This document shows positions 9,339-16,069 of a stretch of 64,000 nt of DNA, one piece after another. The stretch is from Paenibacillus aurantius (lineage in GTDB: Bacteria; Bacillota; Bacilli; Paenibacillales; NBRC-103111): assembly GCF_032268605.1 (NCBI RefSeq), contig NZ_CP130318.1:1832001-1896000 (forward strand), read 5' to 3'. Made by a program: the position numbers and the translations under genes. The notes below the pieces were generated by a model that had not been told where the DNA came from, ran no database searches, and saw only the letters and a program-made list of their open reading frames with translations. Position 1 is the stretch's first letter. Every line of letters begins with the position of its first letter.

Positions 9339-9427
9339 ATCCGTCCGATCCTCCGGAAAATCTGGGCGAGGACGATCTTGCCACATACGGCGCATACCGT
9401 GTATTCGACGACAGCCGGACACCGTGA
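9251..9427 (+). pseudogene. Orphan C-terminal fragment of an unrecognised protein
   Basis: In the +2 frame relative to the DUF4091 gene, a stretch beginning QWLSDTRFEKVHQRY and ending [13 protein letters not shown] runs to a TGA at 9425-9427. Its composition looks like a real protein tail (balanced, charged, aromatic). It overlaps the last 30 or so codons of the DUF4091 frame, as expected if a deletion joined two genes. I do not recognise the parent protein. Confidence 0.4.
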
Positions 9428-9493
9428 TCGTGGATCAACATTCGGCCGGAGGGCATTAGTCCTAATCAATCAAAACCAGGATCCTATAAGCAG

Positions 9494-9530
9494 GCCAACA
9501 CAGCTCTTGAGTAGTTGTGTTGGCTTTTTT
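9494..9530 (+). terminator. Intrinsic terminator ending operon 1
   Basis: GCCAACACA (9494-9502) pairs perfectly with TGTGTTGGC (9516-9524) and is followed by six Ts. It is a textbook rho-independent terminator located directly before the sigma-K relic. Confidence 0.85.
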
Positions 9531-9533
9531 CAT

Positions 9534-9890
9534 GACGAATTACATCGCTCGCTCTGTGTTCACAACCTCAAAAAATTCGATAATACCGGGGAAGACTTGG
9601 AAGATTTTATAAGTATAGGGACCATAGGCTTAATCAAGGCCTTAGAATCCTACTCCCCGGACAAAGGGACGAAGCTCGCAACATTCGCGGCGCGCTGCAT
9701 TGAGAATGAGATCATGATGCACATTCGGTTCTTGCATGATCCACACTACAATTGTGAAGAGCAGCTTAAATTCACAATTGCAGTCGAGGAACGGATAAAG
9801 AAGGCAACGAGCTCACGCTGATTGACATCCTGGGTCGAGAAGCGGGTTCTGATGAAGCTGTATCATGAGTTTTATAAGGTGAAGAAGTGA
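9534..9890 (+). pseudogene. sigK: Relic of a sigma-K-type sporulation sigma factor (copy 1)
   Basis: One frame reads [30 protein letters not shown] and [16 protein letters not shown], which is sigma-70 region 2 of SigK almost residue for residue. A different frame then gives [15 protein letters not shown], and a further frame ends EKRVLMKLYHEFYK plus a stop at 9888-9890, matching the SigK C-terminus. The N-terminal segment, region 3 and most of region 4 are missing, so the gene is frameshifted and internally deleted. It cannot make a working sigma factor. A related relic lies at 25003-25302. Confidence 0.85.
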
Positions 9891-10282: not shown

Positions 10283-10320
10283 GGAACAAGAGAATGAAAT
10301 GCGACAAGAGGTGTTTGTCT

Positions 10321-12525
10321 ATGACCGGTAAGCAGGCGGGTACAATCGCAGGCGGCAGGGAAGAAATGTTTCGCATCATCGCCGAGCATACGTCAGATAC
10401 AATTGTGGTGGTCGACAGCGAAGCCATCGTTCGATATGTATCACCGTCCATTTATACGCAGAGCGGCTATACCGCAGAGGAGTATGAGGGCACCGATGCC
10501 TTCACCATCATTGTACCGGAGGACCGGGAGCTGGTTAGACTGTCGCTCGCTCAAGCGGTACAAGCCCGAACCCCGATCGATGTCGGCTACAGAGTCCAGC
10601 ACGCGGACGGCCGCATACTGGAAGCAGAGACAAAAGTTATGCCTGTCCTTCTTGCAGACGGCACCGTCAACTACGTCGTAGCGGTGGTTAGAGACGTGAC
10701 GGCGCGTAAGCAGGCGGAGAGGCTGCTCGAGAAAATCCTCGACAACGTCAATGCCGCGGTATGGTCGACGGATAAGGATTTCTCGCGATTTATGTTTTTC
10801 TCCGAGAGCGGCGAGAAGATCACCGGCCTGCCAAGAGAGGAAGTCATTCAGAATCCGATGAGGATGCATGATCATATACATCCGGACGATAATGAGCTCT
10901 TGGTAAACGAAGTGAAGGGGAAGCTTGGCCGAGGAATACCGGTCCGCCAAGAGTTTCGCTGGACCCATCATCCCGGAGAGCAGCGGTGGGGGCAATCGAT
11001 TGTACATCCACACCTGAACAACGATGGAGAAGTAGAGCGGCTTGACGGCATTATGCTCGACATCACGGATAAGAAACGTGCCGAGCTTGCACTGGAAGAG
11101 AGCGAGCAGCGGTATAAGTCACTGTTTGAGTATAATTTGGACGGTGTATTCTCGATCGTGCTGGATGGGCTCTATTTTGCACATGCGAACGCAGCCTTTG
11201 AGCGAATTACGGGGATCCGGCGGGAGACGCTGGAGAATCAATGCTTCATCGGGATGATATTCGATGAGGATCACGGCATGGTATATGAAACGCTGTTTGA
11301 GGTTCTGCGAGAAGGAGCGCCTCGGGATATCGAATGCCGGTTGGCCGATATGTCGAAAGGGGAGCGGATCGTGAGCATCACGTTCGTGCCGATTCTTTTG
11401 TCAGGCAAACTGAATGGAATCCACGGCATCATTAAAGATATTACGAAGCGAAAGCAGGAGGAAAGGGAGTTGACTCGGAGTGAGGAACGTTCCAACTTCC
11501 TGCAGTCGAGCTTGAATCAGCTGTCTTCGGATCTTGCAGGCGTCATGAAGGTGGCGGAGCTGGAAGCCAGACTCATCGATGAGGTGCGGATCGTGCTTAA
11601 AGTACAAGAGGTTAGGATTGAGGAAGCATCGGACATTGCCTTGCTAGAACAAGGTTCGGCGGATGAACATACAATTCAGATCCGAATTGGGGAAAAGCCG
11701 CAGCCTGTATGGCTGTCGATCGGACTGAACCGCCCGCTTCCTGAACTAGAGAAGAAGTGGCTGCAGACGGCCGTTCGCTACGTGACCATTCTTTACGATA
11801 ACCTATATCGCACAGAAGACCTGATGAAGCGTATGGAAGAGACGGTTGCGGGGAGTGAAACACCCAAATGGATGCTCCGGCTGTTGTTTAAACTGTCGGA
11901 GAAGGAGCGCGCATCGTTGTCCAGTGACCTGCACGATTCGGTGCTGCAGGATCTAATTATTTGGTACCGGAAGCTGGAATCCTTGCGGTCGTCCAACGTC
12001 TTCGAAGCTGAACTTGGCGCACAGCTCTCAGGCATTGAGGAGGGCCTGCTGGATGCGATCCACCAAATCCGAATCACGTGCAACGAGCTAAGACCTCCTT
12101 TTCTGGTGAAAATGGGGCTGGTGGAATCGCTTAAGAGCCTGTTCAACTATTCGCGTATGTTTGCCAACTACGAAATTGAATTTCATGCAGAGAACATGAA
12201 CGATCCACTGAACGAGGATCAGATTCTCGGCGTCTACCGGATCGTCCAGGAGCTGCTGAATAACGCCACGAAGCATGCAAAATCCTCGAAGGTGACGATG
12301 TCACTGATCGATACTGGCAAGCAAATCGCATTCAACTATTCGGATGACGGCGTAGGTGTACATTTATCGCGACTTGAAGGCTCATTCCAGCATATGGGGA
12401 TCGCAGGTATAGAGAAGCGGGTGCTCAGTATGGAAGGAAAGGTGGATTTCCAGTCAGCGCCTGGTAAGGGATTCCACGCTGCGTTACGGTTTCCCAAGCA
12501 CACAACGGAAAGGGGAGAGTCATGA
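10321..12525 (+). CDS. PAS-domain sensor histidine kinase, NarL/ComP-class
   Basis: Soluble sensor kinase of 734 aa with no membrane helix. Three PAS-type modules lie at about 15-130, 135-255 and 260-385, each ending in the typical VRDVTARK, MLDITDKK and IIKDITKRK exits. A linker of about 100 residues leads to a HisKA_3 domain whose phosphate acceptor is in DLHDSVLQDL (His about 538), then a HATPase domain with ELLNNATKHA and SDDGVGV. Start ATG 10321 follows AAGAGGTG. An ATG nine codons upstream lacks a ribosome site. The stop overlaps the regulator start by 4 bp (ATGA), so the two are translationally coupled. The signal is unknown. PAS modules often sense redox state, oxygen or small ligands. 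Confidence 0.93.
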   Translation: MTGKQAGTIAGGREEMFRIIAEHTSDTIVVVDSEAIVRYVSPSIYTQSGYTAEEYEGTDAFTIIVPEDRELVRLSLAQAVQARTPIDVGYRVQHADGRILEAETKVMPVLLADGTVNYVVAVVRDVTARKQAERLLEKILDNVNAAVWSTDKDFSRFMFFSESGEKITGLPREEVIQNPMRMHDHIHPDDNELLVNEVKGKLGRGIPVRQEFRWTHHPGEQRWGQSIVHPHLNNDGEVERLDGIMLDITDKKRAELALEESEQRYKSLFEYNLDGVFSIVLDGLYFAHANAAFERITGIRRETLENQCFIGMIFDEDHGMVYETLFEVLREGAPRDIECRLADMSKGERIVSITFVPILLSGKLNGIHGIIKDITKRKQEERELTRSEERSNFLQSSLNQLSSDLAGVMKVAELEARLIDEVRIVLKVQEVRIEEASDIALLEQGSADEHTIQIRIGEKPQPVWLSIGLNRPLPELEKKWLQTAVRYVTILYDNLYRTEDLMKRMEETVAGSETPKWMLRLLFKLSEKERASLSSDLHDSVLQDLIIWYRKLESLRSSNVFEAELGAQLSGIEEGLLDAIHQIRITCNELRPPFLVKMGLVESLKSLFNYSRMFANYEIEFHAENMNDPLNEDQILGVYRIVQELLNNATKHAKSSKVTMSLIDTGKQIAFNYSDDGVGVHLSRLEGSFQHMGIAGIEKRVLSMEGKVDFQSAPGKGFHAALRFPKHTTERGES

Positions 12526-13169
12526 ATATTCTGCTAGTCGACGACCACCGATCAGTGGTGGAGGGCACCAAAATGCTCTTAGAATCAGAACCCGACATTA
12601 ACGTCACGATCGAGACGGATGTCTTCCTTGTTACCGATTTGGTTCGGTTAACTAAATTTGATGTCATCCTACTGGATCTATATATGCCGAATATCAACGG
12701 CGCTGACTTGACGCGCAAGCTGCTCGAGTACATGCCGGATACGGTTATCCTCATCTACTCAGGCTTTGAAATTGCACCGCATTTCAATCTGCTAATGGAA
12801 TCCGGTGTGTCCGGGTTTATACCAAAGACATCCACTCGAGAAGAGCTCATTCTCGCCATTCGATGTGCCGCAAGGAAGCAGGCGATTATCCCGATGCAGC
12901 TTCTACGGCAATTGAGGAGGCAGGAAATTCAGGTACAGGGCGATCAAGAGCATGAGCTGACGACCATTACTCGGGAGGAGGATCGCTTGCTGCGAGAGCT
13001 GGCCAAAGGCAAGAGCAATAAAGAAATCTCTCAAACACTCTTGATCAGTCAGCGCTCGCTCGAATATGGCTTGACGGAGCTGTTTCAGAAGCTGCATGTC
13101 AACTCGCGTGTTGATGCGATTCGTAAGGCGAAGAGCCTCGGTATATTACCTGTTGAGGACTTATGCTAA
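12522..13169 (+). CDS. Response regulator, NarL/LuxR family (ComA-like)
   Basis: DNA-binding partner of the upstream kinase, 215 aa. The receiver domain (about 1-120) has the acidic pocket VDDH, the phospho-acceptor Asp at about 52 in ILLDLYMP, and the conserved Lys in FIPKTS. The C-terminal LuxR-type helix-turn-helix (about 145-205) contains LAKGKSNKEIS and VNSRVDAIRKAKSLG. The ATGA overlap with the kinase stop fixes the start. Two tandem terminators follow, so the pair forms a self-contained operon. No adjacent gene is an obvious target. The fragmentary ABC exporter at 13345-13515 may once have been one, which is inference. Confidence 0.93.
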   Translation: MNILLVDDHRSVVEGTKMLLESEPDINVTIETDVFLVTDLVRLTKFDVILLDLYMPNINGADLTRKLLEYMPDTVILIYSGFEIAPHFNLLMESGVSGFIPKTSTREELILAIRCAARKQAIIPMQLLRQLRRQEIQVQGDQEHELTTITREEDRLLRELAKGKSNKEISQTLLISQRSLEYGLTELFQKLHVNSRVDAIRKAKSLGILPVEDLC

Positions 13170-13219: not shown

Positions 13220-13251
13220 CGCTTCACCCTGACTAGGGTGGGGCGTTTTTT
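13220..13251 (+). terminator. Second, tandem terminator
   Basis: CGCTTCACCCT (13220-13230) pairs with AGGGTGGGGCG (13235-13245), 11 bp including two G-T pairs, with a GACT loop and six Ts. It follows the previous terminator by 8 bp. It may originally have served a gene lost from this interval. Confidence 0.75.
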
Positions 13252-13344
13252 GCGTGGAACGCGCAAGGATTTGCGGGTAAGGTACCTGACAAATTCGCGG
13301 CAGCACGCAACCATTGCGCGTTGGATCGCCCATTCCCGCGATAA

Positions 13345-13533: not shown

Positions 13534-14931
13534 ATGAAGAGGGTTTTGCTGCGTTTAACCGTGTATTTATTGCTGGTGATTATCTTTGTTGGAGGTGTTG
13601 GTTTCTATGGATTTAATCGTCACAAGAAAGATTTCTACTACAATGTCCGCCATGAGGTGGTTCCTTCCCTGCAGGTCGTGGATAAACCTCCTTACAATCC
13701 TCATAAACCGACCGTCGCTGTCGTGTTATCGGATTCTTCCATAACGACGGAGGACTTCGACTTTCTTATTCCCTACACCTTGTTATCCATGACAGATGCT
13801 TATAATGTATACGCCGTGGCGCCGGACACCAGCGTAAAGTCCCTCTCAGGCGGGCTGGATGTAATTCCCCATTATTCTTATGAGGGCCTGGATCGTCTGC
13901 TAAATAAAAGTCCTGATATTATTGTGGTTCCTTACATGCCCAAAATTAACTCACCAAAATATGAACCGACCCGAGCTTGGATCCAAAAACAAGCTGGCAG
14001 CCCAACGACGACATTCATAAGCATTTGTGGAGGGGCACTTAATTTAGCTGATGCTGGAATGTTGAAAGGGAAAGCGGGTACCTCACATTGGCAATTCATT
14101 CCCATCCTAAAGAAGCAATATCCGGATACGCAATGGGAAGATAATGTCCGCTATGTGGATGATGGCCATACGATCTCCTCGGCGGGCCAGAGTGCCGGTA
14201 TCGATGCCGTGCTTCACCTTATTGAGCGGCAGTTGGGTGAACCTATGGCTGCACGGATTTCCAACGATATCCACTATCCTTCCTATCCATTCGTGCAGCA
14301 TCCGGAGGTAGACCACCCTTTTCACAGTGATATTAAATTTGCAACCTATTGGCTCAATATTGGTTTCCATTGGGATAAGAAGAAGGTCGCTGTAATGCTT
14401 TATAACGGGATGGACGAGATCGCCTTATCTTCGATCTTTGATTCTTATGGTGATACCGGAACGACACAGCTCTTGACCGTTTCCAATTCCAATGCACTCA
14501 TTACGACAAAACATCATCTACAGCTGCTGGCCAGAAATTCGATATCGAAAGTGCCTCGTTTGGACCAAATGATCATTCCGGGCAGCGACGCCCAAACACA
14601 AGCAGCAGCGGAGATTAAGCGTTGGAATGAGGAAGGGAACTCGAAGGAGACACTCCTTATCCATAGCGATGCGCCTAATCGATATGCATTCGAAGCGCCG
14701 TTGGAGGACTTAGCTAAGCAAGAGGATATTCTGACTGCCAGGCATGCTGTAAAACGGTTCGAATACCGCTCCACCGGAATCAAATTGGAAGGGGATCTGC
14801 TTCCGCTTGCAACCTACAAGAATCTGTTGATTACGGTGTTAGCGGCTTTGTTTATCGCGTTCTGGATCGATAGACGCTTCATCATGAAGAAGAAAATGTT
14901 GGCACGCTTGTATCATCCGTCAGCCGTGTGA
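13534..14931 (+). CDS. Membrane-anchored protein with two DJ-1/PfpI-like domains
   Basis: A 465-aa protein with a helix at about 5-27 and another at about 433-452. Between them lie two class-I glutamine-amidotransferase-like (DJ-1/PfpI) domains. The first (about 58-240) begins PTVAVVLSDS, has the nucleophile-elbow motif ISICGGALNLADAGML (Cys about 165) and a TSHW segment, as in GATase1 modules of AraC-type regulators. The second (about 285-425) begins KKKVAVMLYNGMDE and has no elbow Cys. Basic residues flank the outer ends of both helices (MKRVLLRL and RRFIMKKKM), which predicts both termini inside and both domains outside the membrane. Start ATG 13534 follows GGAGG. Function is unknown. The next gene may be its partner. 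Confidence 0.78.
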   Translation: MKRVLLRLTVYLLLVIIFVGGVGFYGFNRHKKDFYYNVRHEVVPSLQVVDKPPYNPHKPTVAVVLSDSSITTEDFDFLIPYTLLSMTDAYNVYAVAPDTSVKSLSGGLDVIPHYSYEGLDRLLNKSPDIIVVPYMPKINSPKYEPTRAWIQKQAGSPTTTFISICGGALNLADAGMLKGKAGTSHWQFIPILKKQYPDTQWEDNVRYVDDGHTISSAGQSAGIDAVLHLIERQLGEPMAARISNDIHYPSYPFVQHPEVDHPFHSDIKFATYWLNIGFHWDKKKVAVMLYNGMDEIALSSIFDSYGDTGTTQLLTVSNSNALITTKHHLQLLARNSISKVPRLDQMIIPGSDAQTQAAAEIKRWNEEGNSKETLLIHSDAPNRYAFEAPLEDLAKQEDILTARHAVKRFEYRSTGIKLEGDLLPLATYKNLLITVLAALFIAFWIDRRFIMKKKMLARLYHPSAV

Positions 14932-14970
14932 CGGTAGGTTTGTCGTTAACGAAAAGGAGCTGCGATCTAT

Positions 14971-15471
14971 ATGAATGATCTGTTGTTACAATGGGGGCTT
15001 GTATCGTTTATGATCGGGGTCGTTTTATCTCTGCCGCTTGCAGCTGTATACTACGATCAATCCCCACCTTGGACCAAAATATTTTCAAATCCACGTAAAT
15101 TAAAGTCAGCGCATCTCGATTTCTTCATGCAAGCTTTTGGTGCGGGCTTGGTCTATCTATTGGCTTATGCCGCAGGTTTCACCTTGCCCTTATGGATCAT
15201 AACCCCCATGATTTTCGGCATGATGGGCAACCCTCTCATTCTACTACTTGAATCGACCGCGTTGTTCCGAGTGGGACGGATGAGTGTTTTTTACAAAATG
15301 TTGAAAGGAACAAGTCCGGTATCGTTACTGTTTGCATGGATCATGATAGCTGGAAACCTTCTTCCCGCGATGCTGCTCGTGTTCTTATCCACGTTCGTAT
15401 TAGTCGGCGTGTTTATCGTTTGGCGATACCATTCAAAGGCTCGAACGCAAAGGATTCTAAATCAAGGCTGA
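14971..15471 (+). CDS. Small four-helix membrane protein, unknown function
   Basis: A 166-aa protein with about four hydrophobic segments (about 5-27, 48-68, 72-92, 115-143), short loops and a basic C-terminus (WRYHSKARTQR). The second helix starts HLDFFMQAFGAG, a polar His/Asp entry reminiscent of membrane enzymes or small transporters. I cannot place it in a named family. AAAAGGAG precedes the ATG, 39 bp after the stop of the DJ-1-like gene, and a terminator overlaps its stop, so the two genes are probably one operon. Co-function with the DJ-1-like protein is inference from position only. Confidence 0.7.
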   Translation: MNDLLLQWGLVSFMIGVVLSLPLAAVYYDQSPPWTKIFSNPRKLKSAHLDFFMQAFGAGLVYLLAYAAGFTLPLWIITPMIFGMMGNPLILLLESTALFRVGRMSVFYKMLKGTSPVSLLFAWIMIAGNLLPAMLLVFLSTFVLVGVFIVWRYHSKARTQRILNQG

Positions 15472-15607: not shown

Positions 15608-15635
15608 TTGACAGCTTTCTTTTTCAAGCTATAAT
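15608..15635 (+). promoter_or_regulatory. Consensus sigma-A promoter
   Basis: TTGACA at 15608-15613 and TATAAT at 15630-15635 are both perfect, with a 16-bp spacer, placed 66 bp before the start of the DUF2294 gene. Confidence 0.85.
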
Positions 15636-15700
15636 AAAAAATATCAAAGCAAACACCCACATTTATGTAAGGAAACATAACATTAAAGGGGGTGGTTGAG

Positions 15701-16069
15701 TTGAAAGCAACAGCCGGAAGCTTGAAACAAGATATTCTTAAATTGTACAACGAAATCAACAGGGGAATGTTCAGTGCGGGCGTCAACCGGACGAAAGTCG
15801 ACTTTATCGGCAACAAAATTATTATTCTTTCCATTAACCACAGGGTGCCCGTGCTCAGTCTGCTTGACGGGAGAGACCGTGATACCACCCGTAAGATGGA
15901 TAATTTGCTGGGTGAGCATTTCAAGGCGGAAATCAAGAAGACGTTTGAAGACATGTTCCAATTGAATATCGTCGCGATTTTGAAGGATTACGATATTGAG
16001 ACCGAATATTCGGGTACGATCGTGATTCTCGATCGGGACGTGGAAAGCTATCTGAATGATATGTTGTAG
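15701..16069 (+). CDS. DUF2294-family protein
   Basis: A small cytoplasmic protein (122 aa) of the DUF2294 type. It has an N-terminal helix, a beta strand pair (VDFIGNKIIILSI), an amphipathic helix with a Lys/Glu-rich face (GEHFKAEIKKTFEDMF) and a closing strand TIVILDRD. The biochemical role is unknown. TTG 15701 is placed correctly behind AAAGGGGGTGG. A GTG at 15692 lies inside that ribosome site and is less likely. It is monocistronic: a perfect promoter and palindromic operator lie upstream and a terminator downstream, so it appears strongly and specifically regulated. Confidence 0.78.
   Translation: MKATAGSLKQDILKLYNEINRGMFSAGVNRTKVDFIGNKIIILSINHRVPVLSLLDGRDRDTTRKMDNLLGEHFKAEIKKTFEDMFQLNIVAILKDYDIETEYSGTIVILDRDVESYLNDML

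Follow-up and report, generated by a model that had tools for sequence, protein, structure and literature searches.

DJ-1 proteins have been much studied and their function is much disputed, and most of those known are found in the cytoplasm or in organelles. What would a protein with two DJ-1/PfpI domains do between two membrane helices, and is the small membrane protein encoded behind it a partner? These questions are raised by two neighbouring genes, called P1 and P2 here, in a window of 64,000 nucleotides of Paenibacillus aurantius (the whole stretch of DNA that was analysed). Judged from sequence comparison and predicted structure, P1 is probably an envelope protein of the copper-stress response.

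13534-14931, + strand: P1, tandem DJ-1/PfpI protein (465 aa; ATG start; ribosome-binding site ggagg)
14971-15471, + strand: P2, multi-spanning membrane protein of no known family (166 aa; five predicted long helices)

P1 is laid out as a membrane helix (residues ~8-27), domain 1 (~58-250), a degenerate domain 2 (~280-420), a second membrane helix (~428-446) and a basic C-terminal tail. The Pfam profile PF01965 (DJ-1_PfpI) matches residues 71-231 at E=1e-18 and with 68.2 bits (gathering score 26.6), which places P1 in the DJ-1/PfpI superfamily; the second copy alone gave E=0.0012, which is below the cut-off and weak by sequence. Using a profile of 43 homologs, isocyanide hydratase was found twice in P1, its C-terminal half at domain 1 and its N-terminal half aligned to residues 278-346. 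Structure prediction of both domains, which the original prediction had proposed as a check, was done by AlphaFold2 (pLDDT 90.9, pTM 0.90) and gave the DJ-1 fold for both. A Foldseek search with this model returned single-domain DJ-1 structures at rmsd ~2 to 3; the tandem plant DJ-1D matched over 456 columns, with an rmsd of 18. Each domain is therefore DJ-1-like, but the two pack differently from those of DJ-1D. The alpha/beta sandwich fold and the invariant nucleophile-elbow Cys (C165) agree with the superfamily assignment, and the two tandem domains between terminal helices that had been proposed are confirmed by Pfam, the homolog profile, AlphaFold2 and Foldseek. P1 homologs at E<=1e-60 were found in 50 of 250 related genomes and are nearly all full length, an abundance which puts the reading frame and its predicted architecture far beyond chance; P1 is also present in Bacillus, Neobacillus and Gottfriedia, and neither P1 nor P2 was found in the other 347 genomes sampled across the phylum.

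The end helices have mean Kyte-Doolittle values of 2.41 and 2.14, and both are conserved in 54 homologs. All 54 show the positive-inside pattern at the C-terminal helix and 52 of them at the N-terminal helix, so the charge pattern from which both termini had been placed inside is seen in nearly all of these homologs. The C-terminal tail has a mean charge of +4.5 against -0.4 ahead of the helix, and the soluble part holds exactly one Cys, the elbow Cys165, in all 54 homologs; both features support the predicted extracytoplasmic location. The DJ-1 domains of P1 thus very probably sit outside the membrane with both termini inside.

Asp76 and Cys165 of P1 align with Asp17 and Cys101 of isocyanide hydratase, which are its proposed acid/base and its nucleophile (PMC10971408), and both are invariant in 43 of 43 aligned homologs. 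The second copy has A297 and A380 at these dyad positions, so that the elbow Cys, earlier placed at about residue 165 and only in the first copy, is indeed confined to it and lies exactly at 165. The isocyanide (isonitrile) hydratase InhA/ICH of Pseudomonas (PDB 3non, 6ni5) is the best-characterised sequence match and shares with P1 the DJ-1 fold, the Asp/Cys dyad and the GLLxGKxATTHW region; it is, however, a homodimer whose chains have a single domain each and no membrane helix, and it has Thr (Thr102) after the Cys where residue 166 in the P1 family is G, A or N. The Arabidopsis glyoxalase DJ-1D (PDB 4ofw) likewise joins two DJ-1 domains in tandem in a single chain, but both are full length and it has no membrane anchor, whereas copy 2 of P1 is shortened and without the dyad. 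The best NCBIfam match of domain 1 was to FtrA/GbdR-type AraC regulators with a DJ-1 sensor domain (NF006902, E=1.9e-27); P1 scored 96.3 bits against the curated cut-off of 425 and matched no HTH/AraC DNA-binding domain, and it was rejected as an FtrA transcriptional regulator. The Cohnella DJ-1 protease Coh01147 (169 aa, no signal peptide) was set aside as a different protein. In the papers covered by our literature search, nothing relevant turned up on extracytoplasmic DJ-1, or on PfpI with CsoR.

In the structural model of P2 there are five long helices, not the four counted originally, and the conserved motif of the protein is PRKLKSAHLDFF-QA / NPL-LL-E / TSP-SL-FAW. An H48..Q54 pattern in P2 had suggested kinship with styrene-oxide isomerase/HabB; as a relative of these enzymes P2 was rejected, for there was no profile match at E<=10, they were absent from the top 50 Foldseek matches, and the P2 model gave no styrene-oxide isomerase match at E<=0.001. 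The two genes lie on the same strand with a gap of 39 bp, next to a two-component system, and the neighbourhood reads as follows.

10294-12525, + strand: HK, soluble histidine kinase (three PAS domains, HisKA_3, HATPase), overlapping the start of RR
12522-13169, + strand: RR, NarL-type response regulator (LuxR/GerE), presumed regulator of P1-P2
13220-13245, + strand: terminator-like hairpin after RR, separating the HK-RR unit from P1-P2
13250-13275, + strand: RR-box TTGCGTGGAACGCGCAAGGATTTGCG, predicted response-regulator site preceding P1-P2, the single exact copy in the 6.3-Mb genome
15464-15490, + strand: terminator-like hairpin closing the P1-P2 unit

The flanking terminators agree with P1 and P2 forming one operon in this genome. 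Co-occurrence was computed over the 250 related genomes, of which 50 have P1, 10 have P2, 6 have both and 23 have an RR ortholog. P2 is missing from 44 of the 50 P1 genomes and adjoins P1 only in the window species, in its close relative L034 and in G012, so the pair is not conserved as such. In G012 P2 comes first and a single RR-box lies upstream of both genes, and in G171 the two are 2.4 kb apart. At 2978-5666 of L034 (CP106741.1) the match to the HK ortholog and that to the RR ortholog are each split in two, as though by a frameshift, whereas P1 and P2 are intact. The RR ortholog is present in 10 of 10 P2 genomes (Fisher p=5e-12) and P1 in 6 of them (p=0.005), while 15 of the 23 RR genomes carry P1 and 8 do not (p=7e-7), these p-values being optimistic because related genomes are not independent. 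In 10 of the 23, P1 lies less than 10 kb from RR (Poisson p ~4e-19). P2 thus tracks RR better than it tracks P1; P1 and P2 are predicted co-regulated members of a larger regulon, and the putative two-component system is what links them. Recurrent near RR orthologs are an ABC ATPase, an FtsX/MacB-type permease, a lipoprotein (LPP), an MsbA-like ABC protein, an MFS protein, P1 and P2. LPP has seven invariant His in 16 members, with two HxH-type clusters, and the family has no match in Pfam, NCBIfam or PDB; one example, L101:5500-6318 (- strand), is perhaps an undescribed metal-binding lipoprotein. A second P1 paralog (39% identity) adjoins an OmpR-type two-component system at L126:7240-10941, an arrangement seen also in L040, L043, L109, L119, L121 and L125.

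Comparison of promoters gave the RR-box consensus TTGCG-N7-CGCAA-N4-TTGCG, which was located by exact pattern search in 30 genomes (23 with RR, 7 without). The full box was found in 22 of the 23 genomes with RR (1-7 sites each) and in 0 of the 7 without, and the reversed control gave 0 of 30, so that the box is shared only alongside the regulator. It occurs in 10 of 51 P1 promoters against 0 in shuffled promoters, and most sites lie upstream of P1, P2, ABC-FtsX(-LPP), MsbA-like ABC or MFS genes. From this pattern of presence and absence we infer that RR binds the box, and we regard membership of P1 in the regulon as highly likely. The P1 promoter is without a TTGYGG-N4-CCRCAA box, and P1 was rejected as a ComA-type quorum target.

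Most P1 genes belong to genomes without an RR ortholog, and there a second control appears. The pattern ATACCC-N5-GGGTAT, allowing one mismatch, is present in 11 of 51 P1 promoters against 0.05 in shuffles; it is found in lineages without RR, plus two genomes with both (in one of them, L122, only when two mismatches are allowed). The pattern is the one published for type-2 CsoR operators (PMC3902906), and Staphylococcus aureus copA carries ATACC-N4-GGGGGTAC (PMC5947656). It recurs at the csoR-copA loci of several of the genomes examined, the P1 genome G033 among them. The operator of the CsoR-copZA copper regulon of Firmicutes precedes many P1 genes, whereas the window promoter has the RR-box instead; P1 as a member of that regulon was not reported in the literature searched. 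P1 has CopA as a neighbour in L093 and both CsoR and CopA in L140, and in L109 it adjoins CsoR and lies near a multicopper oxidase; this neighbour count alone is modest, and it is the operators that carry the argument for copper. Two RR-box sites precede copper-exporter genes (CopZ-CopA in G092, CopA in G097), and CopA is preceded by the box in these two related genomes only. In the window genome the TTGCG-N7-CGCAA box is absent from both CopA loci examined, and no copper genes were identified in the examined part of the window. These points count against the copper reading, as does the lack of an obvious Met/His metal site in P1. About 12 Paenibacillus P1 genes (L133-L146) have neither RR-box nor CsoR operator and share a 20-bp upstream element, ATAGCCCTATCGAGTCATGC; Rfam gave no match for this element or for a known riboswitch upstream of P1. 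A CsoR-family paralog that responds to a different ligand may recognise a similar operator. Taken together, the promoter patterns make it quite likely that copper is the stress to which P1 responds.

We propose that P1 is part of the regulons with which Paenibacillaceae and some Bacillaceae/Brevibacillus answer copper stress. The soluble PAS kinase HK would phosphorylate RR, which would bind the box at 13250-13275 and activate the operon of P1 and P2; where a lineage has no RR, P1 would often stand under a CsoR-type copper repressor. On the outer side of the membrane, domain 1, with its isocyanide-hydratase-type dyad, could be a hydratase/hydrolase or a repair enzyme that works through its Cys and whose substrate, a small molecule or an adduct, builds up under copper stress; domain 2, lacking Cys and Asp, may complete an internal pseudo-dimer. 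P2 and the ABC-FtsX-lipoprotein, MFS and MsbA-like genes would supply co-induced envelope transport functions. Without the enzyme step this proposal is likely; with P1 acting as an extracytoplasmic Cys enzyme of the copper regulon, its chances are about even.

The main rival accepts the copper control and reads P1 as an extracytoplasmic protein that binds or buffers copper, Cys165 and nearby acidic and His residues binding Cu(I). It would account for the copper-type operators, the CopA/CsoR neighbours and the single invariant Cys of the soluble part. It can also draw on reported copper binding by human DJ-1 and on Naegleria gruberi, in which copper induces a mitochondrial DJ-1 (PMC9035749). 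The Naegleria protein, which is a precedent for the main reading too, resembles P1 as a DJ-1 family member whose level follows copper; it is, however, eukaryotic and mitochondrial, and the part of that report drawn on here describes neither anchors nor tandem domains. Against copper binding, the Cys-Asp pair matches an enzyme dyad, the strongly conserved elbow suits catalysis better, and the homolog alignment has no conserved Cys/Met/His cluster. Action of P1 as an enzyme rather than by metal binding is thus somewhat favoured, and a copper-buffering role looks unlikely.

A second alternative keeps the operators and changes the signal. A different member of the CsoR repressor family, such as one that senses persulfide or formaldehyde, would read them, HK-RR would sense redox or thiol stress, and P1 would serve against reactive sulfur or aldehydes. 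Most of these genomes have 2-9 CsoR-family genes, thiol and carbonyl chemistry is a known property of DJ-1 proteins, and redox is often sensed by PAS kinases. However, the P1 operators match those of csoR-copA loci, the CsoR adjoining P1 in L140 is most like the copper-sensing RicR, and the RR-boxes before CopZ-CopA and CopA in two genomes point to copper as well, which leaves this reading improbable.

If P1 is a copper-stress enzyme, a more specific version, which we hold as a doubtful guess, would make it an isocyanide-hydratase-like surface enzyme, induced with the copper exporter, that destroys copper-binding isonitriles made by competing microbes, the PAS kinase and NarL regulator being an undescribed copper-envelope-stress system. 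Isonitriles destroyed at the cell surface could then not load or strip copper at the membrane.

The sensor role suggested for P1 in the original prediction is very unlikely. HK has no clear membrane helix (maximum hydropathy 1.45) and could receive a signal from outside only through a membrane partner, and the ten places where P1 lies close to RR would fit such a role. The inside tails of P1 are short, though, RR occurs without P1 in 8 of 23 genomes, most P1 genes are in genomes without this RR, and P1 promoters carry the RR-box, which makes P1 a predicted target and not an input of the two-component system. Of that prediction, the tandem domains, the catalytic-like first copy alone, the inward termini and the operon in this genome have stood, and the conserved pair and the sensor role have not; the part played by the two-component system and the connection to copper went unnoticed in it. 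That the domains are cytoplasmic and the terminal helices misread, as the mostly cytoplasmic location of known DJ-1 enzymes might suggest, is highly improbable given the strongly hydrophobic and conserved helices, the positive-inside pattern at every C-terminal helix, the reduction to one elbow Cys in all 54 homologs and the envelope nature of the genes co-regulated with P1.

A conserved extracytoplasmic DJ-1 protein with two copper-linked controls in different lineages would give an independent handle on the role of the fold and would tie it to copper. It also predicts, in ordinary soil Bacillales, a new regulon under two-component control that has its own defined DNA box and includes a metal-binding-like lipoprotein and transporters.

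Two further observations were made in the window. At 9378-9821 (+ strand) a 147-aa frame matches only region 2 of SigK, a sporulation sigma factor (best E 2.7e-28), and resembles a truncated sigK copy. At 15608-16069 (+ strand) a perfect TTGACA-N16-TATAAT promoter stands before the gene of a 125-aa MpsC-domain protein (PF10057, 1.2e-7).
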